A stretch of DNA of 64,000 nucleotides. Origin: Bacteroidetes bacterium UKL13-3 (GTDB taxonomy: Bacteria; Bacteroidota; Bacteroidia; UKL13-3). The notes beneath the pieces are model-generated. The model searched no databases and had not been told where the DNA came from. It worked only from the letters and a program-made list of their open reading frames with translations. Position numbers and translations under genes: made by a program. Positions within the stretch are counted from its first letter, which is position 1; each line of letters begins with the position of its first letter. The stretch spans positions 1,782,718 to 1,846,717 of the forward strand of contig CP012155.1 of the NCBI GenBank assembly GCA_001602415.1, in the 5' to 3' direction. Positions 31,741 through 50,155 of this stretch are shown here, in pieces.

Positions 31741-34494
31741 TTATCGTGTAACAGTTTGCAATAGTAGATACAGGGTAATTAACCCAGTGATTTTAACGGT
31801 AGTTCTTTCAATCACATTGGTCCAATTTACCGGTTCCGATTGTTTTTTCAATTCTTTGTCCTTTTTGGGTTTGGTCACCACATAAACTGTTCCACCTTTT
31901 TTAACTTTTGGATAGATTTTAAAGACCACAAAATTCTTGGTGCGGCTTACTTTACCATTGTTCTCTAATACGTATGTTTTGCGTTTAAAACTGGTTTTGG
32001 TAAACCCGTTGGCAAATTCCTTTACATAATAATTTGCGCGTTTACCTTGTGTAAAGGGAGCATTTACTTGCTCTTGGTTTACAACAGCTAAATATTCAAC
32101 ATCGCCCCTAATACCGGTAAAATCAATCACACGGGGTATGGATACTACATCGCCCTCTTTCAAAATATAATTGTACCTGGATCTTGGGCGCTTTACTGCG
32201 TCTTTTAAATTCATCACCACATATCCTCCTGGTAACGATGGTCGGTATAAGGTTGCTCCTTCCGGGAACGCAAAGCGGTTTAATCCCCCGGCACGTTTAA
32301 TCAATTCATCCAAATGTTCGTCCTTGCGTGCAAGGGCATACGTACCTGGGTATTTAACCTCTCCATTAATCGTTAAGTTTTTTGGCAATTCAAAATCGGG
32401 AACCATCCGCACAAATACTTGATCGAACGGATTAAGCTTAAAGTCGAGTTGATCTTGTGAAAGTTTGGCATCTTTGCCCATTTGCATGGTTTTAATAACC
32501 ACACGCGAAGCTTCACCGGGTTTATAATCATCAGCAAAAAAGCTGATGCGCGATATTTCAATATTAAGCAAGTCGGCTTCCATTTTAACCCCACCTGCCA
32601 CAAACAATAAATCAGAAACGGTCATGCCATTTACATAATCGTAATAACCGGGCTTGCGGAACAATCCAACTGCATTCACCTCCATTTTGTCTAAATAATC
32701 GGTAACAGCCACCACCGTTAATATATCGCCCCTTTGCAACAATTTGTTTTTGGCCGTATCCTCTGGGTTAGCCATCACCTCGGTGAGGTTAACCGGTATA
32801 AATACTTTGGTAAAATCGGGCAACGTGCGTACCAAGAAACTTCGCTCTTTGTTGGCCTCTTCCCTCACACCTCCGCTTAAGAAAACTAAATCGCTTAAGC
32901 GAATGCCTTCAAAATATTCAAACGTTGCGGGCCTGCGAAACAATCCTGAAGAAGAAACTTTTTTGGCGTCAATAAAATCGATGGTAGAAGAAATGCGCAG
33001 CACATCTCCTTCTTGCAACAACTTGTTCTCAGTTGCATCAATAGGCATGCCCACAATTTTTTGAAGGTTGATAGAGATATATTCTTTTGTTTTGTCTGGG
33101 TTTGTACGAATTAGGTAAGCCTTTTCGAGCAAGGCTTCTTTGCGCAATCCATTGGCGCGTTTAATCAAGTCGGAAATGCGGTCGCCCTTTACAAATTGGT
33201 AATTGCCTGCACGGTAAACAGGACCTGATATTTCTAGGTACTGGCGGAGTTCGGTTGATTTTGAGCCAATACTGATACGGTCACCATCTTTTAACGGATA
33301 TTTTTTCTTTGCAGCCCGCAGGCTGTCAAGCGAAAAATTGAACAATTGTTGTTGTGTTCCATCATCGCCTGAGCGGCTAACTTCAATCAATTTGGTATAA
33401 GCCGATGCACTTAATCCTCCGGCAAAAGCAATGAGATCCTCGAGATCCTCCTGAGGTTTAAGTTCATACAACATCGGTCGCTTTACCTCTCCTGATATGG
33501 TCACAATCTTGGCTGAAGGAGCAATATAGATATAATCATTGTCTTCAAGGTAAAAATCCATTTTAGAATTAGGATTGTTCAGGTACTCGTATACATCTAA
33601 CACCTTAATGGTTTTACCGTTTCGCCTAATTTGAATGGCACGCACAGAACCTAATTCGTTTGGTCCGCCAACAGCAATTAACGCATTGAAAGCGGTATTG
33701 AGGGCTGGTATTTTATAACTACCAGGTCTATTCACCTCACCAACAAAATTAACTGTTATGACACGAGAATACGATAGTGTTACCGTGAGTTGATTATTAG
33801 CTAAATCGAAAAACTGACCAAATTTGCTTCTGATTAAGGCTTTGGCATTTCCAAATGTTAATCCTTTAAGCATAATGGGGCCAATATTGGTTGGGTTGAT
33901 GGCTCCTTTGGGATCAACTTTTAACACCTCGTTAAAATAGGAAAACCCGAATACCGAAACCGTTAATTCGTCATTGGGACCAATGATATAACCATCGGGC
34001 GCTTTGGCATCGGTTGCTTTTTCGAAAAATTGAAGGTTATTGTTTTTAAAGAGATGATGTCCGTATATTTCGTTAGGGTTAAGTGCTGAATTCACTTCAA
34101 CCGGAGCAGCTACTTGCGGTGCGGGCGCAATAGGATTCACAATATTGGAACTTGCAGGAGGTGCAATATCTTTAATGTTTTGCGGAACCGATACACTTGT
34201 TTCGTTTACAACGGCAGCATCTACTTTTGGCGGAGCTGCCGCGGCAGGAGTAGCCCGAATTTTGGCCACTCTATCCTTGAGTTTTTGCAACTCGGCCGGG
34301 GGCATTCCATTTTTGAGTGCCAGTGCCTCTTGTTGCGATTCCGGGATACCACTTTTCTCCGATTCAACGATGTACTGACGAATCTGCGCATCCGACAGCT
34401 CATCCACTTTTACATTTTTAACATCAGCAGGAAGTTGCGCAAAAGCCGTGTGAACAAACAGCGACATCAATACGAAAAAAAATACTTTTCGCAT
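31741..34494 (-). CDS. Large SLBB-domain polysaccharide export protein (Wza-like), copy 1
   Basis: The ATG at 34494 starts a signal peptide (MRKVFFFVLMSLFVHTAFAQ), so the 27 upstream in-frame codons are left out; the product is 917 residues, far longer than E. coli Wza. After an N-terminal helical segment (VKVDELSDAQIRQYIVESE) comes the Poly_export core YIIGPNDELTVSVFGFSYF. Then a series of SLBB repeats follows, each with a V.GEV.RPG.Y or V...GLFR.PGYYDY type start and an ...L...AGG... centre. The C-terminus ends in a membrane span (ITGLITLYLLLQ). It should form or line the outer-membrane pore for a surface polysaccharide. Its paralog lies at 37166. Confidence 0.9.
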   Translation of the reverse strand: MRKVFFFVLMSLFVHTAFAQLPADVKNVKVDELSDAQIRQYIVESEKSGIPESQQEALALKNGMPPAELQKLKDRVAKIRATPAAAAPPKVDAAVVNETSVSVPQNIKDIAPPASSNIVNPIAPAPQVAAPVEVNSALNPNEIYGHHLFKNNNLQFFEKATDAKAPDGYIIGPNDELTVSVFGFSYFNEVLKVDPKGAINPTNIGPIMLKGLTFGNAKALIRSKFGQFFDLANNQLTVTLSYSRVITVNFVGEVNRPGSYKIPALNTAFNALIAVGGPNELGSVRAIQIRRNGKTIKVLDVYEYLNNPNSKMDFYLEDNDYIYIAPSAKIVTISGEVKRPMLYELKPQEDLEDLIAFAGGLSASAYTKLIEVSRSGDDGTQQQLFNFSLDSLRAAKKKYPLKDGDRISIGSKSTELRQYLEISGPVYRAGNYQFVKGDRISDLIKRANGLRKEALLEKAYLIRTNPDKTKEYISINLQKIVGMPIDATENKLLQEGDVLRISSTIDFIDAKKVSSSGLFRRPATFEYFEGIRLSDLVFLSGGVREEANKERSFLVRTLPDFTKVFIPVNLTEVMANPEDTAKNKLLQRGDILTVVAVTDYLDKMEVNAVGLFRKPGYYDYVNGMTVSDLLFVAGGVKMEADLLNIEISRISFFADDYKPGEASRVVIKTMQMGKDAKLSQDQLDFKLNPFDQVFVRMVPDFELPKNLTINGEVKYPGTYALARKDEHLDELIKRAGGLNRFAFPEGATLYRPSLPGGYVVMNLKDAVKRPRSRYNYILKEGDVVSIPRVIDFTGIRGDVEYLAVVNQEQVNAPFTQGKRANYYVKEFANGFTKTSFKRKTYVLENNGKVSRTKNFVVFKIYPKVKKGGTVYVVTKPKKDKELKKQSEPVNWTNVIERTTVKITGLITLYLLLQTVTR

Positions 34495-34685
34495 GTGGAT
34501 GGTACCGCAAAAAGAACCAAAACAGTTATGAATCATAGGTTTAACAAAACGAATATTTTTACAAGTATAGGTCATTTGAGGAAAATGCGGATAGTTTACT
34601 TTGGTTGTCTAATCGGGGTGCTGTTGAATCATTGTCTTTAGTGCTGCGGGACTCCCTTTAGGGTCGGTGTAGCGAATGTTACGAA

Positions 34686-37165: not shown

Positions 37166-39652
37166 TTACTTAACGAGTGTGGTGATAATTAACACCAATG
37201 TAGCCAAACTCGAAGTAATACCAACCACTTCAACTGCCGATAACTTTCGTCTTTCCTCACGCGGTGGAACAATAATTTCAGAACCTGGTTTAACCTTTGG
37301 GTGAATGTTAAATACCAAAAATTTTCGAGTGCTTTCTGCAGATCCGTTCGTGTACACCACATATCCTTTTCGTTTGAGTGCTCGATGGGTATACCCCCCT
37401 GCGCCTCTTACATATCTGTTAAAAAGTCTACCCTTTTTATATTGAATACTAATTGGGTACAACACTTCTCCTGTAATTTTTACGGTTTGGGTTTCACGCG
37501 GAATGCGAATGATATCACCTTCCTCCATTTTAAGGTCGTTTTCCCCTCCGGAATTGCTTAATATTTTATCCAACTCAATTCCAACTATACTATAATTATC
37601 AGCTAACTCAAGCTCTGTCCTATCTTTGGCTATTGAAGTATCTTTACTTTGCTTTTTCAACGACTCTAATTGTTTTTTGCGAATGAGTAAATCAACACCT
37701 GTTATTTTTTTCGTTCTTACCAATACAGCACCTTCTATGTAAGCACTTGCAGTTAAACCTCCGGATCTTTTGATGATTTCTGATATTTTTTCGTTACTGC
37801 GCGTTAAGGTGTATTGTCCAGGATGAGCTACTTCGCCTTCTAACGTAATGTTTCGTTGAGCACCAAAGCCCGGTAACCTGTATATAGATACCACATCAAA
37901 TGGCAACAATACAATCTCTTTACCATCGGCTGTTTTTAACTCATCATTTACTTCATACGTAATGATATTGGATACTGGAGCGTTGGCGCTGTTTACATCA
38001 ACCGTTTTAATTCTACGGGCTATCTCAATTTTAGTTTTAGAAGCCGATTCTTTCAATCCACCTGCAGTAATAATAAGATCCTCCACCTTCATATTTTCAG
38101 CAAACGGATATTCACCCGGTATCAACACCTCTCCTGATATCGACACCGTATACTCTTCACGTAACTTAAGTTTGGAAAGTATTTGAATATTATCTTCACG
38201 TTGCAAGTTGATATCTTTTCCATTCAACACCTCGGAAATGTCAAATGAAATCACTTCTAGGGAATTATCCGGCTTCAATCTATAAATAAGCGCCCTGCTC
38301 ATAAAAGCATCCTCTGTTAAGCCATCCGCTTTTTTAATTAATTTAGCCAATGTTAAACCTCCATCTAACGCAAAATATCCGGGACGAAAAACGGCACCAT
38401 TAATTTGAACACGATTGGAAAATCTACCCAATACTTTATCGATGGTGAAAACATCTCCTGCTTTGGGAACAAACATGTTAATGAGTTCTGCTGGAACATC
38501 TGCAACACTTTTTTCCTTGGCTGTATTCCTGTATACCTTAATACGCTCGCGGTAGGCATCATTGGTATAGCCACCTGCAAATTCAATCACATCTTTGAGC
38601 GTTTCTTTTGCTGTTACTTCATACAACCCTTCACGTTTTACTTCACCTTTCAATTCAACCCTTGTTTCGTAACTTCCAACTTTAATGATATCCTGATCTT
38701 GTAACCTGACATTTCCTTTGGCTTCGCCTTTTAGCAAAAAATCATACACATCAATGGTTGTTAACAACTTACCATTTCGGATAACTCTAATGTTACGAAA
38801 TGACCCGTTTTTATTCGGCCCACCTGATACATATAAAGAATTGAAAACTGTTGCCAATGAAGGAAGTGTGTAGGTTCCTGGATTGGTAACTTCACCCAAT
38901 ACCGTAACTTTAATGCTTCTGATATTACCTAACGCAATATTTACCGATGTTTCACCGGTTTGAATGGTTCCGTATATTGAAGCCAATTTATTCGTAATTT
39001 TTTTGCGTGCTTGCTCAATACTCAATCCACTTACGGCAATTAAACCCACTTGAGGAATACGCAAGGTGCCATCAGGTGTAATTTTGAGTTTGTAACTTAC
39101 CTCAGAGTATCCCGAAACATCTATAACAAGCTCATCATCCGGACCAAGTTGATAGTTTTGAGGTGTAGCAATTTTTAAATTCGGTTCAAATGTTAGCATT
39201 TTGTTGTTGAACAAATCGGCACCAAATATTTTTTGCGACTCTTTCTTGTCTTTATTAGCGTTTTTGTAATTTTTTTCTTTTTCCGAATCAACATTCTTAC
39301 CCTCTTCTAAATTCTCCTCAGCATTTTCATATCCGAAGTATTCTCTATTACTCGATGATTCTTCCTTTTTTATTTTGTTGGATGATTGTGTGAGATTTTG
39401 AATGCGCAACTTAAGTTTGGCAAACTCCTGCAGATTCATATTCCTTTGGTTAGCTATATGTTGCAATTGAGTTAAGGATAATCCCTTTTCTTGCGCTTGG
39501 TTCCAAAATGCTAATACTTGTTCATCTGTTAAATCGTCAACCTTCGCATTGGCAAAATTCTGAATATTAAGATTGGCTTGTGTTTGAGCAAATGTAAATA
39601 CAGAAATAAACAGCGAAAGAAACAAGAGTAACCTGGAAAAATATGGATTCAT
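37166..39652 (-). CDS. Large SLBB-domain polysaccharide export protein (Wza-like), copy 2
   Basis: The ATG at 39652 opens a signal peptide (MNPYFSRLLLFLSLFISVFTF, cut after AQ); product 828 residues. Like the first SLBB protein it has a KVDDLTDEQVLAFWNQAQEK helical block after the signal, a charged linker (residues 100-150, many lysines and glutamates), the Poly_export core YQLGPDDELVIDVSGYSEV, multiple SLBB units (VLGEVTNPGTYTLPS, LKGEVKREGLYEV, ISGEVLIPGEYPF, LEGEVAHPGQYTL, ITGEVLYPISIQY), and a C-terminal membrane span. It is the first gene of the minus-strand polysaccharide locus, divergent from the TonB receptor gene (about 195 bp between starts). Confidence 0.9.
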   Translation of the reverse strand: MNPYFSRLLLFLSLFISVFTFAQTQANLNIQNFANAKVDDLTDEQVLAFWNQAQEKGLSLTQLQHIANQRNMNLQEFAKLKLRIQNLTQSSNKIKKEESSSNREYFGYENAEENLEEGKNVDSEKEKNYKNANKDKKESQKIFGADLFNNKMLTFEPNLKIATPQNYQLGPDDELVIDVSGYSEVSYKLKITPDGTLRIPQVGLIAVSGLSIEQARKKITNKLASIYGTIQTGETSVNIALGNIRSIKVTVLGEVTNPGTYTLPSLATVFNSLYVSGGPNKNGSFRNIRVIRNGKLLTTIDVYDFLLKGEAKGNVRLQDQDIIKVGSYETRVELKGEVKREGLYEVTAKETLKDVIEFAGGYTNDAYRERIKVYRNTAKEKSVADVPAELINMFVPKAGDVFTIDKVLGRFSNRVQINGAVFRPGYFALDGGLTLAKLIKKADGLTEDAFMSRALIYRLKPDNSLEVISFDISEVLNGKDINLQREDNIQILSKLKLREEYTVSISGEVLIPGEYPFAENMKVEDLIITAGGLKESASKTKIEIARRIKTVDVNSANAPVSNIITYEVNDELKTADGKEIVLLPFDVVSIYRLPGFGAQRNITLEGEVAHPGQYTLTRSNEKISEIIKRSGGLTASAYIEGAVLVRTKKITGVDLLIRKKQLESLKKQSKDTSIAKDRTELELADNYSIVGIELDKILSNSGGENDLKMEEGDIIRIPRETQTVKITGEVLYPISIQYKKGRLFNRYVRGAGGYTHRALKRKGYVVYTNGSAESTRKFLVFNIHPKVKPGSEIIVPPREERRKLSAVEVVGITSSLATLVLIITTLVK

Positions 39653-39846
39653 GTGCAATGAAATAACTTTGGTTTGATTTGTAAAAATAAATAGCAGACA
39701 AAAATAATAATAAAACGATGTTGTGCAAGCTATTGTGTTATTAGGTACTGGAACATATCTAGGCACATACAACCAATTGCAACGGATTGATGTCTTTATG
39801 GAACTAATACAAAAAAATCCAAATTAGTATATATTCGCCTCCTTGT

Positions 39847-42171
39847 ATGAAATACCTTAACCTATTTAGAGCATGCCTCATTTGTATAGCAAGTCTATTT
39901 TCTCTTTCCGATTCAGCTGCTCAATCCAACACGGGTGAAATTCGTGGGTTTGTATACGACAAAGAAACGGGCGAGCCAATTATATACACCAACGTATTTA
40001 TTCGTGAGTTGCTAATTGGCAAGGCAACCGATTTAAACGGATTTTACGTTATCAGTAAATTGAAAGAAGGAACCTACGTTATACAATGTTATTCTATTGG
40101 ATACGATACCGTGAGGGCAACCGTAACCGTTGGGGCTGGCAAAATCTCAACACAAAATTTATACTTGCGTAAAGTATCGCAAAACCTCAAAGAGGTGAGC
40201 ATTACTGCCGAGAAACAAAAAGCGCAAACCGAAGTTAAAATATCCAACATCACTATTACCCAAAAAGACCTTAAACAACTACCAACCTTTGGTGGGGAGC
40301 CTGATTTGGTGCAATACCTTCAAATTTTACCAGGGGTGGTTTTTAGTGGCGATCAAGGTGGTCAGTTGTACATCCGAGGAGGACCTCCTGTGCAGAATAA
40401 AGTATTGTTAGATGGAATGATTATTTACAATCCCTTCCACTCTATTGGTTTATTCTCCGTTTTTGATGCAGATATTATACGCAGTGCCGATGTGTTTGCA
40501 GGTGGTTTTAATGCGCAATATGGCGGACGAATTGGCGCTATTATTGATGTTACCACCCGTGAAGGAAATAAAAAACGTTTCAGCTCCAAACTATCAGCAA
40601 ATACCATTACAGCTAAAGCATTGGTGGAAGGCCCTATTCAAAAATTTAGTGAAGGAGGCGGAAGTGCATCGTACATTTTATCTTACAAAACATCTTATTT
40701 AGACAAAACATCAAAAGGTTTTTATGGATATGCCGATCCGGATAACCGCACCAATGGATTGCCCTACAGCTTCAATGATTTATACGGAAAAATTTCATAC
40801 ATTGGCGATGGAGGAAGCAAATTGAATGTTTTTGGTTTCAATTTTCAAGATGATGTAAGGCTACCACAAACACAATATGGTTGGACGGCACAAGGCATCG
40901 GAACGAACTTTTTTGTGATACCCGAGGGTTCAACCATTATAAACGGATCGGTTGCTTACTCTAATTACAACATGAAACAAATGGAGTCGGACGGAAGGCC
41001 CCGCGAAAGTGGTATCAACGGATTTAATGTGGCGTTAAATTTTACCAACTTCTTAGGAAAAGACGACATCAAATACGGGTTTGAGATGAATGGTTTTAAT
41101 ACGTCATTCAAATTTATCAATGCTTATGGCAAAGAGTTAAGTCAGGATGAATCGACAACCGAACTTGCCGGTTTTGTGAAATATAAAAAAACCGTTGGAC
41201 GGTTAATTATTGAGCCTGGACTGAGGATTCAAGCTTATGCTTCACTTGGTAATTATTCTGTTGAGCCTCGATTGGGTGCTAAGTTAAATGTAACCGATCG
41301 GTTTAGGTTAAAAGCCGCAACAGGAATGTATTCACAAAACTTATTAAGTGCTGTTTCTGATCAGGATGTGGTGAATTTGTTTTATGGATTTTTATCTGGT
41401 CCGGATGAGTTGCCAGAGAAGTTTAATGGTAAAGATGTTACCAGCAAAATGCAAACTGCTATTCATTATGTTGGAGGTGCAGAGTTTAACATTGGCGAAC
41501 ATGCCGAAATTAATGTGGAAGGATTTTATAAAGATTTCACCCAACTCACCAATATTAACCGAGACAAGCGTTACGACAATACTACCGAGAACCAAAACAT
41601 TCCCGAAACGCAAAGACGGGATTATATTATTGAAACGGGAAGTTCATACGGAGCAGATATTACTTATAAGTATGAATACAAGCGATTTTATTTCTGGGCA
41701 GTTTATTCGTTAACCTATGTAAAACGTTTTGATGGAACACGTAACTACTTCCCTAATTTTGATAGAAGACATAACATTAACTTAGTTGGAACCATTAACT
41801 GGGGAAAAGAAGCAGCTTGGAGCTTTAATACACGTTGGAATTTTGGTTCAGGATTTCCATTCACACAAACCCAAGGAAACTACGAACAACTTAATTTTTC
41901 AAATGGTGTTTCAAGCAACTATGCCACGCAAAACGGTCAGTTGGGAATATATTTTACGGATATTAATACCGGTCGCCTACCATATTTCCACCGTTTAGAT
42001 GCCTCACTGTCCAGAAAAGTAAAATTAAGCGAACACACATTAATGACGCTTACTGCTGCTGCTACCAACGTATACAGCCGCGACAACATCTTTTACTTTG
42101 ATAGGGTAAATTTTAGACGCATCAATCAGCTGCCAATTATACCCACCGTGGGGATAAATTTGACCTTCTAA
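39847..42171 (+). CDS. TonB-dependent outer-membrane receptor with carboxypeptidase-regulatory-like N-domain
   Basis: 774 residues. A signal peptide (ends near SDSAAQ) is followed by a CarboxypepD_reg-like beta-sandwich, GEIRGFVYDKETGEPIIYTN and GKATDLNGFYVISKLKEGTY. The plug domain starts at KDLKQLPTFGGEPDLVQYLQ and contains GGQLYIRGGPPVQNKVLLDG. A 22-stranded barrel then runs to the terminal aromatic PTVGINLTF, the usual C-terminal strand. No SusD partner follows, so it is not a SusC-type glycan importer; the ligand is unknown. It opens a plus-strand group with the TPR and barrel genes (48-bp gap to the next). Confidence 0.9.
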   Translation: MKYLNLFRACLICIASLFSLSDSAAQSNTGEIRGFVYDKETGEPIIYTNVFIRELLIGKATDLNGFYVISKLKEGTYVIQCYSIGYDTVRATVTVGAGKISTQNLYLRKVSQNLKEVSITAEKQKAQTEVKISNITITQKDLKQLPTFGGEPDLVQYLQILPGVVFSGDQGGQLYIRGGPPVQNKVLLDGMIIYNPFHSIGLFSVFDADIIRSADVFAGGFNAQYGGRIGAIIDVTTREGNKKRFSSKLSANTITAKALVEGPIQKFSEGGGSASYILSYKTSYLDKTSKGFYGYADPDNRTNGLPYSFNDLYGKISYIGDGGSKLNVFGFNFQDDVRLPQTQYGWTAQGIGTNFFVIPEGSTIINGSVAYSNYNMKQMESDGRPRESGINGFNVALNFTNFLGKDDIKYGFEMNGFNTSFKFINAYGKELSQDESTTELAGFVKYKKTVGRLIIEPGLRIQAYASLGNYSVEPRLGAKLNVTDRFRLKAATGMYSQNLLSAVSDQDVVNLFYGFLSGPDELPEKFNGKDVTSKMQTAIHYVGGAEFNIGEHAEINVEGFYKDFTQLTNINRDKRYDNTTENQNIPETQRRDYIIETGSSYGADITYKYEYKRFYFWAVYSLTYVKRFDGTRNYFPNFDRRHNINLVGTINWGKEAAWSFNTRWNFGSGFPFTQTQGNYEQLNFSNGVSSNYATQNGQLGIYFTDINTGRLPYFHRLDASLSRKVKLSEHTLMTLTAAATNVYSRDNIFYFDRVNFRRINQLPIIPTVGINLTF

Positions 42172-42219: not shown

Positions 42220-45200
42220 ATGATAAAGCTGAGAGGAGCCATTTTACTTTATTACTGCATAGCTGCATGTGTTTTTGCATTACCCCAAAACTCTTTCGCA
42301 CAACGCACTCAAACATACGATAGTGATATTCGCTACTACAACCGAGCGCTTGAGTTACTCGACAAGGAAAAATATGGCGATGCTCAAAAGCATTTCTTGA
42401 TGTATGCCAATATAAGCACCGACCGAGAAACGCGCATCAACGCGGAGTTTTATGCCGGTGTATGTGCCATGGAATTGTTTAATCCCGATGCCATTAATAT
42501 GCTCAATGCGGTGGTGCTTAAATATCCCGAACACAGCAAATCGCAACCTGCATTGTTTAATTTAGGCAAATATTTTTACCGTGTAAAAGACAATAAATCG
42601 GCCTTAAAATATCTAACACAAGTAAATGATGTTGCCCTCACGCCTGCTGATGCATCTGAATTCTGGTTTATCAAAGGTTATTGCCATTTTAAAACGGAAC
42701 AATTTGATGAAGCAAAACTTGCTTTCAAACATATTAAGGATGATCAAGGTAAATACTATGATGCATCTAACTATTATTATGGATATGTCGCCTACCGTCA
42801 AGGTAACCAAGTAGAGGCAATGGATCATTTTCAGCGCATCCAAAAATCAAAAACATTTGGTCCTTTATCACAAGTATACATAGCCCAAATTTATTTTTCG
42901 CGCAAGCAATACAAAGAGGTTGTTTCGTTTGCCGATACCATTTCAAATAAAGAAATTATATATGATGTTGCCGGAATTGTGGGTCAATCATACTACGAAA
43001 TGGCCGAATACAAAAAAGCTCTCCCATACCTTGAGCGCTTTAACAGCAATCCACCCGTGAGTAAAACCAACAAAGATGTTTACCGCTTAGGATATTGCTA
43101 TTTAATTGCCGGGAACTATGAAAAAGCAATTGACCAGCTTGGAAGCATTGCTACCGAAAAAGATAGCTTATCACAATATGCAAGCTTCAATTTGGCACAA
43201 GCATATTTAAAAAGTGATAAAAAGCAACAATCCCGCAAGGCTTTTGATGTTGCTTATAAACTTGGTTTCAATAGCGATTTAACAGAACTCTCTCTTTTTA
43301 ATTTCGCCAAACTTTCATTTGAGTTATCCTACCAACAAGATGCACTCAAAGATTTAGTAAAGTTTGTAAACGATTATCCTGAGTCGCCCTATATTGATGA
43401 AGCTCGCTCTTCATTAGGTGAGTTATTGCTAAGCACCAAAAATTATAAAGATGCCGTTAAAACGTTGGAGAGCATTAAAAAACCAACACGCGAAAACAAC
43501 ATGGCTTACCAACGCGTAGCCTATTACCGTGCTGAGGAATTATACCTCAACAACGAATACGTAAATAGCGAAACGTACTTTGAAAAATCAATGCAATTTG
43601 ATTTTGATAAACGCTTGTTTGCGCTGGCTCATTTTTGGATGGGTGAATTGCAATACAAAAAAGGAAACTATGCAAAAGCATACGTATACTATCAAAAGTT
43701 TCAGCAATTCCCGCAAACCAAAGACACCCGTTTCTTTTCGATGGCCCTTTACAATAAAGGGTATACGCATGTAAAACAAGATAACTATTCAGAGGCGATT
43801 GATGATTTGAAAAAATTTATTGAAACCGATTATGCCAAAAACAATGTAGAAGTATACACCGATGCCATGATGCGAATTTCCGATTGTTATTTTGTGTTGC
43901 GCAACTATGCAAAAGCAATTGAATCGTATGAGGTAATTGTATTGAAAAAACTCAATGGTGCCGATTATGCCTTATACCAACAGGCTATGATTTTAGGTGT
44001 TGAAAATAAGTTTAAGCAAAAAATAACTACACTCAATACCCTAATTTCGAACTACAAAAAATCGCCATATATTGATGATGCTTTGTTTGAAATTGCTAAC
44101 GTCAATCTGCAAACCGAAAATTACCTTGAAGCTTTGCAAGGATTTCAATTGATTATTGATAACTATCCGCGCAGTATGTATATACGCAAAGCCATGCTCA
44201 ATAAAGGATTGTGTTACTACAATCAAAATAAAGATGAACAAGCGCTTGATGCATTTAAGGTTTTAATAATCAACTACTCAACCAGCGATGAAGCACGCGA
44301 AGCATTGGTGATTGTGAAGAATATATTCGTAAACAAAGGTGAAAGCGAAGAATACTTGGAGTTTGTTAAAGTTTTGCCCAATATTACCCTCTCTCCTACC
44401 TACCAAGATTCGGTTACGTATGAATCTGCTTTTAATGCTTACAAAAATGGTGATTGCGATAAAGCAATTAAAGGATTTGGAAACTACATCACAAAATTTG
44501 GTGGAGGATTTTTTATACTAAAAGCCAACTATTACAAAGCTGAATGTGATTTTAAATTAAAGAACAATGATGCCGCGCTGGTAGGTTATGAATATGCTGC
44601 AACCTATAACCGAAATGATTTTACAGAACGCAGTACACGCCATACGGCAGTATTGTATTTCATGAAAAAAAATTACGAAAAAGCGTTTGAGTATTATAGT
44701 TCATTAGAGCGCATTGCAAGTACGCGCGATAATATTGGTATTGCTTTATTAGGTCAAATGAAATCGGCTTCATTGCTAAATAAAGGCGATACCGTTTCCC
44801 AAATTGGATTCAAATACATCAACTCTGCGGTAACGCAAAAAGACGGACTGATAGAAGCTCACCTGCATATTGCACGTTACTACACCAAGCTAAACATGAT
44901 AGATTCAGCGTTTGCCGAGTATCAATATGTTTTAAAGGAAACGAAAAATGTACTAGCTGCAGAGGCTAAGTTCAATATTGCTTTGATTCAATCACAGAAA
45001 AAAGATTTGAAAAAATCGAAGAAAACCATTTTTGAATTGGCTGATAACTTTTCGGCATACGAATATTGGGTGGCCAAAGGATATATTTTGTTAGCGGATA
45101 TTTACCTCATCGAAAAAGATAACTTCCAAGCGAAAGCCACCCTGCAAAGTATTATTGAGAACTACGAAGGTGCCGACTTAAAACAAATTGCCATTGATAA

Positions 45201-45282
45201 AATGAAAGCCATTATTGATGCTGAAGACCGATTGAAAAAACCTCAAACACCTCCTGCCGACAGGGAAGTTCAACCTAATTAA
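42220..45282 (+). CDS. Large secreted TPR-repeat protein (1020 residues)
   Basis: After a signal peptide ending near NSFAQ the protein is almost wholly tetratricopeptide repeats, about 20 units (for example YYNRALELLDKEKYGDAQKH, AIDDLKKFIETDYAKNNVEV, YLEALQGFQLIIDNYPRSMY). The repeats sharing ..Y.KS.Y..DA.FE are of the Tol-Pal/YbgF and outer-membrane assembly lipoprotein type. The C-terminus is proline-rich and polar. It lies 14 bp upstream of the beta-barrel gene and 48 bp after the TonB receptor, so it is probably a periplasmic partner of that barrel. A TAGTTTTG box at 42187-42194 could serve as a local -7 element. Confidence 0.85.
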   Translation: MIKLRGAILLYYCIAACVFALPQNSFAQRTQTYDSDIRYYNRALELLDKEKYGDAQKHFLMYANISTDRETRINAEFYAGVCAMELFNPDAINMLNAVVLKYPEHSKSQPALFNLGKYFYRVKDNKSALKYLTQVNDVALTPADASEFWFIKGYCHFKTEQFDEAKLAFKHIKDDQGKYYDASNYYYGYVAYRQGNQVEAMDHFQRIQKSKTFGPLSQVYIAQIYFSRKQYKEVVSFADTISNKEIIYDVAGIVGQSYYEMAEYKKALPYLERFNSNPPVSKTNKDVYRLGYCYLIAGNYEKAIDQLGSIATEKDSLSQYASFNLAQAYLKSDKKQQSRKAFDVAYKLGFNSDLTELSLFNFAKLSFELSYQQDALKDLVKFVNDYPESPYIDEARSSLGELLLSTKNYKDAVKTLESIKKPTRENNMAYQRVAYYRAEELYLNNEYVNSETYFEKSMQFDFDKRLFALAHFWMGELQYKKGNYAKAYVYYQKFQQFPQTKDTRFFSMALYNKGYTHVKQDNYSEAIDDLKKFIETDYAKNNVEVYTDAMMRISDCYFVLRNYAKAIESYEVIVLKKLNGADYALYQQAMILGVENKFKQKITTLNTLISNYKKSPYIDDALFEIANVNLQTENYLEALQGFQLIIDNYPRSMYIRKAMLNKGLCYYNQNKDEQALDAFKVLIINYSTSDEAREALVIVKNIFVNKGESEEYLEFVKVLPNITLSPTYQDSVTYESAFNAYKNGDCDKAIKGFGNYITKFGGGFFILKANYYKAECDFKLKNNDAALVGYEYAATYNRNDFTERSTRHTAVLYFMKKNYEKAFEYYSSLERIASTRDNIGIALLGQMKSASLLNKGDTVSQIGFKYINSAVTQKDGLIEAHLHIARYYTKLNMIDSAFAEYQYVLKETKNVLAAEAKFNIALIQSQKKDLKKSKKTIFELADNFSAYEYWVAKGYILLADIYLIEKDNFQAKATLQSIIENYEGADLKQIAIDKMKAIIDAEDRLKKPQTPPADREVQPN

Positions 45283-45296
45283 GGAAGCAAGTAAAC

Positions 45297-46937
45297 ATGA
45301 CAACAAAATTAAATACATTGAAATTATACACAATTGCTGCACTCATAGTAGCAAATTTGCCGGCATTTGCACAAGATACTTTGCGCACCGATTGGGTTGA
45401 TGTGGTAAAAGCATTCAAGCCCATTTTAAGTGAGTCGATGAAAATTCAAAGCAACCCCAATCCTGAAATTCCAGAAACGCAAACACCTGTATTTTCATAC
45501 GAAGTTCCAGAGAAACGAATGGATGGACAACCAACTCTGTATACTATTAAACCGCTATCCTTAGGCACATCTTTGTTACCTAAACTCAAAAATAATTATA
45601 CCAAAATTGGATATGGAAATTACAATGCCCCGTTGTTTGAAACGTACCTTAATACCACACGTAACAAAAATGTGCAGGCTGGTTTATTTGTAAAGCATTT
45701 ATCGTTTAACCCCAATGGCGACAGACAGTTTAGTAATAACACCGTATACGGATTTGGAAAACGTTTTTTAGGTTCTGGAATACTATCAGCTGATGCATTG
45801 TATTACCGCAATGTGGTAAATCTTTATGGATACAATACGTTGGCGGATGTTGGTCCAAACAATAATATTAAACAAAAATTTCAAACGATAGAAGGTAAAG
45901 TTGGCTACCAAAATATTTTGAAAGACACCTCTAAACTGAGCTATAAATTGGATGGTGGTTTTTACAACTTTTCGGATAACCGCGATGTAACGGAAAATGA
46001 TTTTAAACTATACGGAACATTTGGTAAACGTATCAATGGTAACCCGATCGACATCAAAACAGGGGTGAATATTTCTAACTTGAAATTTGGAAACACAGAA
46101 TACAATCGTGTGTTTGTTGATATCAATCCACGTTATAAACTCAACATGGATCAATTGTATATCAACTTAGGTTTTAATTCCACCTTTTTTAACGATAGCA
46201 CCGGAACCACATTTTACTTCTTCCCCATTGCCGAAGCGGGTATTAACCTTATTAAAAACAGCTTAACTACCTACGTGGGGATAACAGGAAACCTGCAACG
46301 TAATACCTACCGAAGTATTGCTAACGAAAATCCTTTTGTGCGCTCAGCAGGATTCAGAAATACAGAAAACTCCTTTGAAATGTATGGAGGTTTGAAAGGG
46401 ATTATCAGTCCGCAAACTTCCTTTTTGTTAAACGCTTCGTTGGCTAATGTTAAAAACTTATTGTTTTATGTGGGCGACTCGGCAAACCTCAATAGCCAGA
46501 AAGTAGTATTCGATACCAAGAGTTCAAGTGTGTTTAATGTGAAAGCAGAGTTGAACCACGAATTTGGAAACCAATTTTTGTTGGGATTTGTGATGAACTA
46601 TTACAGCTACAGCATCAGCATTAAAGCACCATATTCAATGCCAACCTTTACCACACAGTTAAACCTAGGTTACAATATGAGTGATAAATTTTTGTGGAAG
46701 GCCTCAGTATTAACCATGAATAAACGTGAAAGTGGAATTGAAGTAGCACCAAATACCATCAATGCTACAACGTTAAAAGGATTTGTTGACCTTAACTTGG
46801 GATTGGACTATCGCTACACCAAAAACATTTCGTTGTTTGTAAACCTTAACAACCTCACCAACAACCAGTACGAGCGCTGGGTAAACCTTCCGGTTTATGG
46901 ATTTAATGTAATGGGCGGATTAACCGTATCATTTTAA
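45297..46937 (+). CDS. Outer-membrane beta-barrel protein, TonB-receptor-like barrel without a plug
   Basis: 546 residues. Signal peptide ending in NLPAFAQ, a short periplasmic part (DVVKAFKPILSESMKI, then TPVFSYEVPEKRMDG), then alternating beta-strands with aromatic girdles (NNYTKIGYGNYNAPLFETYL, LNLGLDYRYTKNISLFVNLN) and the TonB-barrel ending NLTNNQYERWVNLP...VMGGLTVSF. The regulatory and plug domains are missing, so it is a fixed barrel rather than a normal receptor. Its fixed neighbours (TPR protein before, HU/SPOR protein after) suggest an envelope complex. I cannot name the family more closely. Confidence 0.8.
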   Translation: MTTKLNTLKLYTIAALIVANLPAFAQDTLRTDWVDVVKAFKPILSESMKIQSNPNPEIPETQTPVFSYEVPEKRMDGQPTLYTIKPLSLGTSLLPKLKNNYTKIGYGNYNAPLFETYLNTTRNKNVQAGLFVKHLSFNPNGDRQFSNNTVYGFGKRFLGSGILSADALYYRNVVNLYGYNTLADVGPNNNIKQKFQTIEGKVGYQNILKDTSKLSYKLDGGFYNFSDNRDVTENDFKLYGTFGKRINGNPIDIKTGVNISNLKFGNTEYNRVFVDINPRYKLNMDQLYINLGFNSTFFNDSTGTTFYFFPIAEAGINLIKNSLTTYVGITGNLQRNTYRSIANENPFVRSAGFRNTENSFEMYGGLKGIISPQTSFLLNASLANVKNLLFYVGDSANLNSQKVVFDTKSSSVFNVKAELNHEFGNQFLLGFVMNYYSYSISIKAPYSMPTFTTQLNLGYNMSDKFLWKASVLTMNKRESGIEVAPNTINATTLKGFVDLNLGLDYRYTKNISLFVNLNNLTNNQYERWVNLPVYGFNVMGGLTVSF

Positions 46938-46947
46938 TTGGCTGTAA

Positions 46948-46985
46948 AATAGCAGTATTCCCTATTTATAGTGCACACTGCTATT
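46948..46985. repeat. 9-bp inverted repeat between the barrel and HU-SPOR genes
   Basis: AATAGCAGT (46948-46956) and ACTGCTATT (46977-46985) are perfect arms around a 20-base loop. No T-run follows, so it is a weak terminator or an attenuator/binding-site candidate. Confidence 0.4.
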
Positions 46986-47021
46986 GCCTAAATGATCGCA
47001 AAGCTGTATGTTGCGGTTTAA

Positions 47022-48311
47022 ATGGGAACCGAAAAACCAACACAACAATCAATTTGGGACTTTGTAAAGGACCTGCTTCACCAGCATGATTGTGTAATTG
47101 TGCCCGGATTTGGAGGTTTTGTGTGCAACCGCGAACCGTCAAGAATTGACCAGGTTTCGCATGTTATTACGCCTCCTTCACGTAAAATTGTGTTTAACCA
47201 AAACCTCAAATCAAATGATGGGTTGTTGGCAGGCTATCTTGCGCAAAAACAAGGAATTAGTTACAAGGAAGCTATTGGTTTTATAGAAGGAAACGTTCAG
47301 CAAACTTTAACCCTTCTGCAAGATCAAAAACAATTGATGATTGACTTGTTCGGTAATTTTAGGTTGAATGCCGATGCCAATTATGTTTTTTTACCGGATA
47401 AACGAAACAACTACCTAACCAGTTCATACGGATTAGGGTTGATTCAAGCTTCACCAGTTTCCGCTCGCACCATCAAAGTAGGTAAGGCTAAAATATTTAG
47501 AGATATTCAAACACCTAAAAAAGCACGTGCTGATAAAAATACTTGGCCCAAAGTACTGGCAGGTGTATTGGTTTTGTTGTTGAGCGTAAACGGCTACATT
47601 TTTTTAAGTGATCATTCTATTGCTGATCTACGCTTGGGTGGTGAAAACACAATGAGCATAACCTCTTGGTTTGATTCATTGTTTCGCACAAATGATTCGG
47701 TATCGCCCGTTGCACCTATTGTTGAACCCACCCCAATAGTTGAAGAGAAAATAGCGTTAACACCCGCACCTTCTGCTCCTGCACCTACTGAAGATATTAG
47801 TGTTACAGAGAATGAAGTTATAGTAGCACCAATAGAAAGTACTGTTTCGAAAGCTATTGATACCAAAGCTGAATTATTAGATACATATGCTCCTCTTTAT
47901 TCATTTGCATCTCATTTTGCAGCAGCACGTGGTATCATCTCATTTCCTCAACGTTCGGCTGAAGAAACAATTACCGAAGAACAACCAACCATTAATGTTC
48001 CAGTAGAAACGAATGTAAATCCGATTACTCCAACTACCATTAAACCTACCTCGAATCATCTATCAACTGCCGGAATTGCAAAGGGATATTATGTAATTGG
48101 TGGTGTGTTTTGCAAAGAGCGCAATGCTAAACGTTTTATTAAACAACTCAACGAAGCTGGTTATGCGCAAGCAGATTTGCTCGTAAATGCCGATATTAAT
48201 TGCAAACGTGTGAGCTACCAACGTTTTAACACACGTAAGGATGCAGAAAAATTTTGCCAAGAATTGAAACGCGATGTGAATCCCGGAGTTTGGATCTTAG
48301 CTGCCGAATAG
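47022..48311 (+). CDS. HU-CCDC81 and SPOR domain protein, single membrane span
   Basis: 429 residues. Residues 1-65 and about 70-140 are the two CCDC81-like prokaryotic HU domains: VKDLLHQHDCVIVPGFGGFV, IVFNQNLKSNDGLLAGYLAQ and DLFGNFRLNADANYVFLP. A membrane helix (WPKVLAGVLVLLLSVNGYIF) near residues 174-194 follows, then a proline/threonine-rich linker, and a SPOR domain at the C-terminus (YYVIGGVFCKERNAKRFIKQ to FCQELKRDVNPGVWILAAE), which binds denuded peptidoglycan at division septa. HU domains therefore face the cytoplasm and SPOR the periplasm, which suggests a bridge between the cell interior and the wall. It is widely conserved in Bacteroidota, with unknown exact role. Confidence 0.9.
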   Translation: MGTEKPTQQSIWDFVKDLLHQHDCVIVPGFGGFVCNREPSRIDQVSHVITPPSRKIVFNQNLKSNDGLLAGYLAQKQGISYKEAIGFIEGNVQQTLTLLQDQKQLMIDLFGNFRLNADANYVFLPDKRNNYLTSSYGLGLIQASPVSARTIKVGKAKIFRDIQTPKKARADKNTWPKVLAGVLVLLLSVNGYIFLSDHSIADLRLGGENTMSITSWFDSLFRTNDSVSPVAPIVEPTPIVEEKIALTPAPSAPAPTEDISVTENEVIVAPIESTVSKAIDTKAELLDTYAPLYSFASHFAAARGIISFPQRSAEETITEEQPTINVPVETNVNPITPTTIKPTSNHLSTAGIAKGYYVIGGVFCKERNAKRFIKQLNEAGYAQADLLVNADINCKRVSYQRFNTRKDAEKFCQELKRDVNPGVWILAAE

Positions 48312-48895: not shown

Positions 48896-50155
48896 TTACG
48901 TTTTCATCTTTTTCTTTTTAGCCGAAGGAAACAAGATATTGTTTAAAATAAGACGGTAACCCGGTGAATTCGGGTGTAACGCTAAATCTGTGGGTGGTTC
49001 GCCAACTTGGTGCTGGTAATCTTCCGGATCATGACCGCCATAAAACGTCCAAGTGCCTTTGCCAATTGTTCCATGAATATAACGTGCTTCTCCAAGAGCT
49101 TTACTCTCGCCCATCACTAATACCTCGCTTTTAATAAATTGTTTGCGAAAAGCTGTTGTTTGTCCATAAAACCCTTTCACTACTTTGGTATGATTTTGAC
49201 ACAACATGGTAGGTATTACATCCCATTTAGCCGAAAAATCAAACAACGTAAACACATCGTTGGGTTCATTTACGGCACGTGTTTCGGGAGTCGCATCGAT
49301 GTATGAATATTCATACACGTATGGATTCATCATCAACTTAAAATCTTTAAACGCAAACGTATTGCTAAAATTAAGTTTGGCATCGGCTCGTTGGTCGGCA
49401 GGATCACCATCAAACATCGATTCACAAATATCAACACCATCGGCTGCCAATGCAATATCATAACTATCCGTAGCAGAGCACATGGCAAACAAAAATCCGC
49501 CACCTGTGGTAAAATCACGAATCTTTTTGGCTACTGCTAATTTTAGCTCCGACACTTTCTTATAACCATGTTTGGCCGCCATCGCTTCCGATTCCCTCAC
49601 TTCTGATTGATACCAAGCTGCATTCGCAAAGCTTGCGTAAAATTTTCCATATTGACCTGTGAAATCCTCGTGGTGCAAATGCAGCCAGTCATACAACGGT
49701 AGTTTTCCATCTAAAACCTCATCATCAAAAACTGTTTCGTAAGGAATTTCAGCATAGGATAGAACCAGTGTTACTGCATCATCCCAGGGTTGTTTGGTTT
49801 TAGGAGAGTATACTGCAATTTTAGGTGCCTTGTGAAGCTTAACCAATTCCATGTTAACCTCAGGCTTGGCAATTTCTTGTAAGATTTGCGATGTTTGTCC
49901 TTCGCTAATTACCTCATAACTCACACCTCGCACCCTACACTCTTTTTCGGCCGCTTCACTAAATTGAAGCATAAAACTTCCATCACGGTAATTGAGCAAC
50001 CAATCCACATCTAAATCGCGCTTCAATTCCCAAAAAGCAATTCCATATGCTTTCAAGTGATTTTTCTGCCCCTCATCCATGGGAATCAGAATACGTGTGG
50101 CTTGAGCCGATAAGCTCAACAGAAATACTAAAATTAAGCTAAAGCGTGTTTTCAT
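48896..50155 (-). CDS. Secreted protein often labelled 'asparagine synthetase B' in databases; true function unknown
   Basis: 419 residues. A signal peptide (MKTRFSLILVFLLSLSAQA) precedes RILIPMDEGQKNHLKAYGIA. The middle has LYDWLHLHHEDFTGQYGKF, then GGGFLFAMCSATDSYDIALA with a cysteine in a nucleophile-elbow-like setting, and GKGTWTFYGGHDPEDYQHQV near the end, a layout that recalls class I glutamine-amidotransferase or ThuA-like folds. None of the N-terminal-cysteine amidotransferase or ATP-pyrophosphatase features of real AsnB is present, and the protein is exported, so that label should not be trusted. It stands alone between two repeat-bearing spacers. Confidence 0.7.
   Translation of the reverse strand: MKTRFSLILVFLLSLSAQATRILIPMDEGQKNHLKAYGIAFWELKRDLDVDWLLNYRDGSFMLQFSEAAEKECRVRGVSYEVISEGQTSQILQEIAKPEVNMELVKLHKAPKIAVYSPKTKQPWDDAVTLVLSYAEIPYETVFDDEVLDGKLPLYDWLHLHHEDFTGQYGKFYASFANAAWYQSEVRESEAMAAKHGYKKVSELKLAVAKKIRDFTTGGGFLFAMCSATDSYDIALAADGVDICESMFDGDPADQRADAKLNFSNTFAFKDFKLMMNPYVYEYSYIDATPETRAVNEPNDVFTLFDFSAKWDVIPTMLCQNHTKVVKGFYGQTTAFRKQFIKSEVLVMGESKALGEARYIHGTIGKGTWTFYGGHDPEDYQHQVGEPPTDLALHPNSPGYRLILNNILFPSAKKKKMKT

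Follow-up and report, generated by a model that had tools for sequence, protein, structure and literature searches.

A TPR protein, a plug-less barrel and an HU/SPOR protein encoded in a row in Bacteroidia: possible parts of a Tol-like trans-envelope system

The DNA analysed, referred to here as the window, is a 64,000-nucleotide stretch of Bacteroidetes bacterium UKL13-3 (GCA_001602415.1, contig CP012155.1, positions 1,782,718-1,846,717, forward strand). An earlier note had described genes for a TPR protein, a plug-less barrel and an HU/SPOR protein lying in order on one strand, and the open reading frames confirm that they are consecutive, all on the + strand, from 42220 to 48311. Gaps of 14 bases (TPR to barrel) and 84 bases (barrel to HU/SPOR) separate them. 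A fourth gene on the same strand, 48 bases upstream of the TPR gene, encodes a plug-bearing TonB-dependent receptor, and such a receptor precedes the TPR gene in five of the six loci of family f1 (L096-L099 and the window). The features are as follows.

39847..42171, + strand: TonB-dependent receptor with CarboxypepD_reg and plug (Pfam CarbopepD_reg_2, 1.5e-15; Plug, 2.1e-10)
42220..45282, + strand: periplasmic TPR protein, YbgF/CpoB-like, 1020 aa (TPR models, TIGR02795)
45297..46937, + strand: plug-less TonB-receptor-like outer-membrane barrel, 546 aa (profile match and homologues; no Pfam match)
45372..45443, + strand: conserved N-terminal segment of the mature barrel, residues 26-49 (alignment of 60 barrels)
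47022..48311, + strand: HU(CCDC81)1-HU2-membrane helix-SPOR protein, 429 aa (Pfam, AF2 model, structure matches)
47052..47441, + strand: tandem HU pseudo-dimer, residues 11-140, cytoplasmic by topology (pLDDT >90 over most of it)
48084..48305, + strand: SPOR domain, residues 355-428, periplasmic by topology (fold and profile matches)

Scans of the TPR protein gave many TPR models as well as TIGR02795 (tol_pal_ybgF; 177 bits, cut-off 90), and its one hydrophobic segment is N-terminal, in agreement with its earlier description as a periplasmic TPR protein. It scores 38 bits with the CpoB equivalog NF008068, against a cut-off of 383. Identity with the type IX secretion (T9SS) protein PorW/SprE was rejected, the score with NF052312 being 74 bits against an equivalog cut-off of 250. 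A role for the TPR protein or the barrel as subunits of the Bacteroidota BAM complex was also dropped; neither PMC12611786 nor PMC12578637 uses the words TPR, tetratricopeptide or SPOR in its main text. Homologues of the TPR protein are present in 185 of the 198 genomes of our sample of class Bacteroidia.

No Pfam family matches the barrel at E ≤ 0.1, so neither a plug nor a CarboxypepD_reg domain is recognized, and the single NCBIfam hit, to a TonB-receptor model, is partial and below cut-off (4.8e-5); the previous description of a barrel lacking plug and regulatory domain thus holds. Positions 459-531 of the barrel profile match ferric enterobactin receptors (5e-4). A homologue occurs in 181 of the 198 class genomes. 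In the phylum sample it was present in all 49 in-class genomes, a count obtained by comparing the matches listed there, which leave out the 93 genomes without a match, with the class members listed in an earlier search; among the 149 other genomes the best match (2.8e-23) was partial, and full-length matches to the family were confined to Bacteroidia. Alignment of 60 barrels, a set that includes near-duplicates such as L098 and L135, reveals an N-terminal segment in which all 60 have K or R at one column, 45 have P and 54 have A or S. A strict regular expression matched 30 of the 60, and the alignment displays a looser form in the remainder. This segment, residues 26-49, comes right behind the signal peptide and presumably resembles a TonB box, a likeness that we take as suggestive only. 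The AF2 model of the barrel, built from five sequences, has a mean pLDDT of 45.8 and no claim is drawn from it.

The third protein carries HU-CCDC81_bac_1 (PF18174; 1.7e-21, 76 bits), HU-CCDC81_bac_2 (PF18175; 1.9e-17, 63 bits) and SPOR (PF05036; 3.6e-5, 24 bits), all above cut-off. It has one hydrophobic segment (178-196) with positive residues on the N-terminal side. The AF2 model is confident for HU1-HU2 (about 11-140) and SPOR (355-428) and places a helix at 175-197. The architecture put forward earlier, HU domains followed by a single membrane span and SPOR, is therefore borne out. Foldseek with the whole model gave no match at E ≤ 0.001. In VIA, applied as a second look at the Foldseek candidates, the top row was 6ozd, a Burkholderia exported protein matched in its SPOR part (Z 10.2), and the SPOR domain aligned with that of RlpA at Z 8.6 and 8.5, the latter entry containing denuded glycan. 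A sequence-profile match to the FtsN SPOR domain (1.7e-5) was also obtained, and matches to RlpA, CwlC, DedD and FtsN place the domain in the SPOR fold. Among relatives, four proteins of family f3 end after HU and the membrane segment, without SPOR, and two f9 proteins at the equivalent position have no Pfam HU match. A scan of genome contigs for close relatives, with the HU/SPOR protein as query, gave no match.

The three-gene order is conserved beyond the species, recurring in families f1, f2, f3, f10 and f11, so that the gene-order condition named in the earlier note as refuting its reading does not hold. Adjacency was counted on the same strand, among genomes of the class sample with both genes among the matches listed, which leave out the weaker ones (barrel in at least 147, TPR in at least 146, HU in at least 150 and TolQ in at least 150 of 198 genomes). 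TPR and barrel form a gene pair nearly throughout the class sample: among the matches listed they are adjacent in 128 of 135 genomes and 44 of 46 families. Barrel and HU/SPOR are recurrent neighbours (17 of 125 genomes, six families), as are HU/SPOR and TolQ (17 of 121, eight families), together or separately, and barrel and TolQ adjoin in 16 of 127 genomes from five families. Among the same matches, HU does not lie beside the barrel in 108 of 125 genomes, or beside TolQ in 104 of 121. Uniform placement gives an expectation below 0.2 for each of TPR-barrel, barrel-HU and HU-TolQ. The first loci to be fetched came from 40 of the 64 genomes with matches in the phylum search; later ones were hand-picked, partly for adjacency already seen, so that only the counts over 198 genomes are unselected.

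In several families the cluster runs on into TolQ-TolR-TolA/TonB, mostly followed by FolC. Among the fetched loci, TPR-barrel-HU-TolQ-TolR-TolA-FolC occurs in seven of family f2 and two of f10, the same row without TPR in three of f83 and two of f95, and TPR-barrel-TolQ-TolR-TolA, with a protein lacking HU after the barrel, in three of f9. One locus (L121, f99) has HU-TolQ-TolR-TolA with TPR and barrel on a different contig, and in another (L104, f95) TolQ lies on another contig. The UKL13-3 genome has TolQ-TolR-TolA-FolC grouped about 105 kb from the row described here, with TolQ matched at 2.5e-98 and TolR found by profile, both at that other locus. One linked cluster was scanned and gave MotA_ExbB at 2.7e-22 and ExbD at 5.2e-23, as befits a TolQ-TolR proton motor. 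Pfam searches with three TolA-type proteins found no match; a TolA profile run against the PDB with E up to 1 returned five matches, all TonB chains, the best a weak one to the TonB C-terminal domain (0.053). By eye, the TolA-type proteins have a membrane segment and a spacer.

An FtsE-like gene lies divergently beside or near the TPR gene in 14 of 40 loci; FtsE was the best NCBIfam model, below its cut-off, in seven of seven tested. The TolB N-terminal domain is essentially absent from the class sample: TolB_N, a model of that domain only, was detected in one of 198 genomes and not in that of UKL13-3, the E. coli control being positive. Other neighbours are housekeeping genes (FolC, GyrB-like, MurA, DprA and a thioesterase). 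In many f5 and f4 loci the gene after HU encodes a 4HBT-family thioesterase; a parallel with YbgC was dropped, the enzyme looking YciA-like by eye only.

Since they stand in a row with proton-motor genes in some relatives, the TPR, barrel and HU/SPOR proteins are candidates for the inward pull on the outer membrane during division. On balance we consider it probable, by a little, that class Bacteroidia has a Tol-like trans-envelope system powered by protons, in which they make up the parts at the outer membrane, in the periplasm and for targeting to the septum. A TolQ-TolR motor would drive a TolA/TonB-like transducer, whose C-terminal domain might engage the plug-less barrel at its conserved N-terminal segment and thereby exert a pull on the outer membrane. 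The TPR protein would act as periplasmic scaffold of the barrel, taking the place of CpoB. The HU-membrane-SPOR protein would bring the machine to the septum or hold it there, with SPOR on denuded septal glycan outside, and the tandem HU, together with the [FY]GL motif that comes after it, on a partner in the cytoplasm, more likely protein than DNA. In favour we count the adjacency counts, motor genes, FtsE-like neighbour, SPOR fold, the single TolB_N in 198 genomes and the barrel in 49 of 49 in-class genomes. Against it stand the many genomes without HU beside barrel or TolQ, the motor genes placed elsewhere in UKL13-3, the weak TolA-TonB similarity and the failed barrel model; gene neighbourhood is also distinct from physical interaction. 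Published work weighs on the same side. In PMC5891637, Cytophaga hutchinsonii mutants of genes designated tolA and tolB by the authors equalled the wild type in PY6 growth and filter-paper digestion, and a Pal-like mutant had no division defect. PorE, a proposed CpoB-TolB-Pal fusion, has been put forward in place of the genes described here as the outer membrane-wall tether of Bacteroidetes (PMC12204202, section 10), and TolB-like parts are reported in fusion proteins of Bacteroidetes (PMC12204202).

The three proteins had earlier been envisaged as joining outer membrane, peptidoglycan and nucleoid at the division site. The TolQ-TolR-TolA neighbours and the FtsE-like gene add weight to a connection that runs from the outer membrane through peptidoglycan to the inner membrane. 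The part about the nucleoid does not find support: the HU region is acidic in most homologues, the second HU copy is armless, and the two f9 proteins scanned gave no Pfam HU match. That the HU/SPOR protein tethers the nucleoid to the septal wall seems to us improbable, although it would suit an arrangement in which a single membrane helix separates a pair of cytoplasmic HU folds from SPOR, and Burroughs and colleagues reportedly predicted in 2017 a chromosome-partition role for CCDC81-type HU proteins. Single-chain IHF with DNA aligns with the HU region over 100 residues (Z 5.6), and copy 1 keeps a mildly basic arm, with a charge of +1 to +5 in 46 of 53 homologues. Set against this, the net charge of the region is -7 to +2, and negative in 43 of 53, compared with +13 for each of the two ordinary HU proteins of this genome (arms +7 and +5). 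The RNPxTG-type motif is found in none of the 53, although only one of the two ordinary HUs has it. Copy 2 has 12-13 residues where copy 1 has 28 and hence no arm, so the basic arm in both protomers that we took as the mark of a DNA-binding HU was not found. With both copies together, the highest scores went to chains of microtubule entries and of a Mycoplasma gliding complex. We rejected the HU pair as a DNA binder.

Alternatively, TPR and barrel may form a module for export or assembly at the outer membrane (T9SS-like or of the nutrient-type Ton kind), energized by TolQRA and unconnected with division, with HU-SPOR as a passenger. The TonB-receptor descent of the barrel, the true TonB receptor heading the row in family f1 and the sub-threshold PorW/SprE score speak for it, but that score is far under the family cut-off and the barrel has no recognized plug; moreover, HU-SPOR stays linked to TolQ when TPR and barrel lie elsewhere (L121), and an FtsE-like neighbour is present in 14 of 40 loci. 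We regard this module as rather unlikely. Less likely still is a chance cluster of broadly conserved genes that share no process, as the housekeeping neighbours might suggest; these pairs turn up in one family after another, in varying subsets of the row, and for the three with a computed expectation they do so far more often than uniform placement would give. The products also fit a single envelope topology.

The Tol-like system just preferred may be extended to a tentative reading, which we hold to be somewhat short of an even chance: Bacteroidia would own a Tol system in which TolQ-TolR-TolA drive a plug-less, TonB-box-bearing barrel replacing TolB-Pal, with a giant TPR scaffold standing in for CpoB and, at the septum, a SPOR protein in which the tandem HU has turned into a cytoplasmic protein-docking module. 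Its genes, spread across two or three loci in most genomes, could for that reason have been overlooked. If true, this would be the machine, so far missing, that constricts the outer membrane in the main class of the phylum. The barrel, full-length only in Bacteroidia in the phylum sample, would be a lineage-specific envelope component. A recent account finds no identifiable tol-pal loci in Bacteroidetes and expects further outer-membrane-stabilizing systems to be revealed (PMC12204202, section 10; 2025), and no Pal in Bacteroidetes in the database used there; the cluster supplies concrete, class-wide genes for this gap.

With Tol-Pal (TolQ-TolR-TolA-TolB-Pal-CpoB) the cluster shares the TolQ/TolR families, a TPR protein of YbgF type, the clustering of the genes and, putatively, a transducer resembling TonB/TolA; it differs in that the TolB N-terminal domain is essentially absent, FolC stands at the end and the row includes a plug-less barrel and an HU-SPOR protein. 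PorE has been proposed for the same gap and likewise has a TPR part, but it is a lipoprotein that combines TPR, TolB-like, carboxypeptidase-like and Pal parts, a set that none of our three proteins possesses. The barrel resembles TonB-dependent receptors in its C-terminal strands and possibly in a TonB-box-like N-terminus, and departs from them in having no recognized plug or CarboxypepD_reg. Domain content is shared with the CCDC81-type HU/SPOR proteins of Bacteroidetes (PF18174/PF18175), for which we report here the operon-like link to TolQRA and the barrel, the loss of HU in some cases and of SPOR in others, and an HU region of acidic character. The HU-SPOR protein shares the SPOR fold with FtsN, DedD, DamX and RlpA, none of which is known to carry a tandem HU on the cytoplasmic side.

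The earlier note described three genes in a row, and these are confirmed on the forward strand, separated by 14 and 84 bases. A plug-bearing receptor gene precedes them.

39847-42171, +, TonB-dependent receptor with plug and CarboxypepD_reg domains, 48 bases upstream of the TPR gene
42220-45282, +, periplasmic TPR protein, 14 bases before the barrel gene
45297-46937, +, plug-less TonB-receptor-like outer-membrane barrel, 84 bases before the HU-SPOR gene
47022-48311, +, HU-SPOR protein (two HU domains, a membrane helix and a SPOR domain), third of the row

Such a receptor lies directly before the TPR gene in five of the six loci of f1, the family to which the window belongs, and a convergent DUF3024 gene is found downstream of HU-SPOR. 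The TPR protein scores above the cut-off of TIGR02795 (tol_pal_ybgF) and below those of the CpoB and PorW/SprE equivalog models. The Pfam scan of the barrel was without any match; its profile matched the ferric enterobactin receptor at 5e-4 (positions 459-531 of 554). Directly after the signal peptide the barrel carries a segment conserved among 60 aligned barrels, with Lys or Arg at one column in all 60, Pro in 45, Ala or Ser in 54 and, at another column, Val or Ile in 49. We take this segment to resemble TonB boxes.

Elsewhere in the window, a Peptidase M1 protein (12608-15244) has a type IX sorting-domain match (Por_Secre_tail, 1.4e-14) near its N-terminus, at residues 32-105, rather than at the usual C-terminus. 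Two SLBB/Poly_export (Wza-like) proteins (31741-34575 and 37166-39772) share a stretch with sugar-nucleotide enzymes, and a 419-residue protein (48896-50155), with a signal-like start by eye, gave no match in the Pfam scan.

The gene order extends beyond the species, recurring in loci of families f1, f2, f3, f10 and f11. In loci from 40 of the 64 genomes matching HU-CCDC81_bac_1 it was found, within f2, f3, f10 and f11, in 14 by pairwise search and 15 by profile, and four of the six f1 loci have it, the window counted in. Among 198 genomes of the class Bacteroidia the barrel is present in 181, TPR in 185, HU-SPOR in 183 and TolQ of the cluster's type in 189. Counting only genomes with both genes among the matches listed, TPR and barrel adjoin in 128 of 135, barrel and HU in 17 of 125, HU and TolQ in 17 of 121, and barrel and TolQ in 16 of 127. 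The expectation under uniform placement, calculated for the first three pairs, is below 0.2 in each case. Among 198 genomes sampled across the phylum the barrel occurs in all 49 in-class genomes, which are the class members from the HU-CCDC81_bac_1 search listing, and the best match in the 149 out-of-class genomes was 2.8e-23, matches there being partial.

Flanking genes were surveyed in 40 loci with TPR or barrel at their centre; the TPR gene is present in 34. Fourteen of the 40 have a divergent ABC ATPase next to TPR or close to it, immediately adjoining in 12. Seven of these 14 were tested, and in each the top NCBIfam model was FtsE, leading by more than 55 bits, with scores under that model's cut-off. 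In eight loci a GyrB-like gene comes after the barrel, directly in seven (one tested by model). In two f1 loci, L099 and L100, the place of HU-SPOR after the barrel is taken by MurA, which a model search confirmed in one of them. In L034-L037, L163 (Lutibacter citreus) and L203 (Salegentibacter echinorum), HU-SPOR is remote from TPR and barrel; there its neighbours are a divergent DprA and, following it, a 4HBT thioesterase.

It had been suggested that the row links outer membrane, peptidoglycan and nucleoid at the division site. The HU region does not bear out the nucleoid part, since 43 of 53 homologues carry a net negative charge there, an RNPxTG-type motif occurs in none of the 53 and the second HU copy has no arm. 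The arm of the first copy does carry +1 to +5 in 46 of the 53. UKL13-3 has two ordinary HUs, both with a charge of +13, and an RNPxTG-type motif is present in one of these. The AF2 model of HU-SPOR is confident at HU1-HU2 (about 11-140) and SPOR (355-428) and places a helix at 175-197; its SPOR domain aligns with that of RlpA (Z 8.5-8.6). Over 116 residues the HU pair aligns with a Tetrahymena microtubule inner-protein entry chain (Z 8.1); the matches to a Mycoplasma mobile gliding complex chain (Z 7.0, 116 residues), single HU protomers (Z near 6.6, about 70 residues) and single-chain IHF (Z 5.6, 100 residues) fall below Z 8 and may reflect no more than a common arrangement. An [FY]G[LMI] motif follows HU2 in 50 of 53 homologues. 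We suggest that the HU pair may serve as a protein-docking module.

In family f9 the HU domain is not recognisable in the proteins at the HU position.

L079, 10628-11395, f9 protein at the HU position
L106, 10389-11132, f9 protein at the HU position
L111, 10138-10986, f9 protein at the HU position

Neither of the two scanned gave a Pfam HU match; one has a SPOR match that falls short of the cut-off (18 bits against 21), and the other has none. Inspected by eye, the f9 proteins have a SPOR-like end and all three a membrane helix; all three also contain an [FY]GLP motif. Four f3 proteins (L059, L061, L062 and L102) have HU and the membrane helix and lack SPOR; two others (L063 and L101) have a SPOR-like end by eye. 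HU and SPOR therefore appear to be separable.

In the fetched loci HU is followed by TolQ/ExbB, TolR/ExbD, a TolA/TonB-like protein and, in most cases, FolC, the motor genes being identified by Pfam in the one cluster scanned. The full HU-TolQ-TolR-TolA-FolC set is present in seven f2, two f10, three f83 and two f95 loci. Loss among loci is piecemeal: f83 and f95 loci retain barrel-HU-motor with TPR elsewhere; TolQ is absent from a third f95 locus (L104), where TolA and FolC remain; L121 (f99) has HU-TolQ-TolR-TolA, its TPR-barrel pair being on a different contig; and L047 (f11) and L096 (f1) have TolA after HU. The three f9 loci run TPR-barrel, HU-less protein, then TolQ-TolR-TolA, with FolC in two. 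UKL13-3 itself has TolQ-TolR-TolA-FolC as one cluster at 1717.1-1720.4 kb of its genome, which falls outside the window; the start of TPR is at 1824.9 kb. Against the PDB the TolA-like profile matched only TonB chains, weakly. A TolB_N search over the 198 class genomes gave one match, in L215 (G238, f12; 3.2e-6), and a signal came from the Bacteroides ihuae control genome as well.

No published description of the TPR-barrel-HU-motor cluster was found in the literature covered, mostly outside subscription journals. One paper reports that Bacteroidetes lack identifiable tol-pal loci and proposes PorE as the outer membrane-wall tether (PMC12204202). Another reports wild-type-like PY6 growth and filter paper digestion for Cytophaga hutchinsonii mutants that its authors name tolA and tolB (PMC5891637). 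Neighbourhood, domains and topology suggest the function of the cluster, and on these grounds the three-gene row is a candidate Tol-like envelope system, a better description than a nucleoid bridge.
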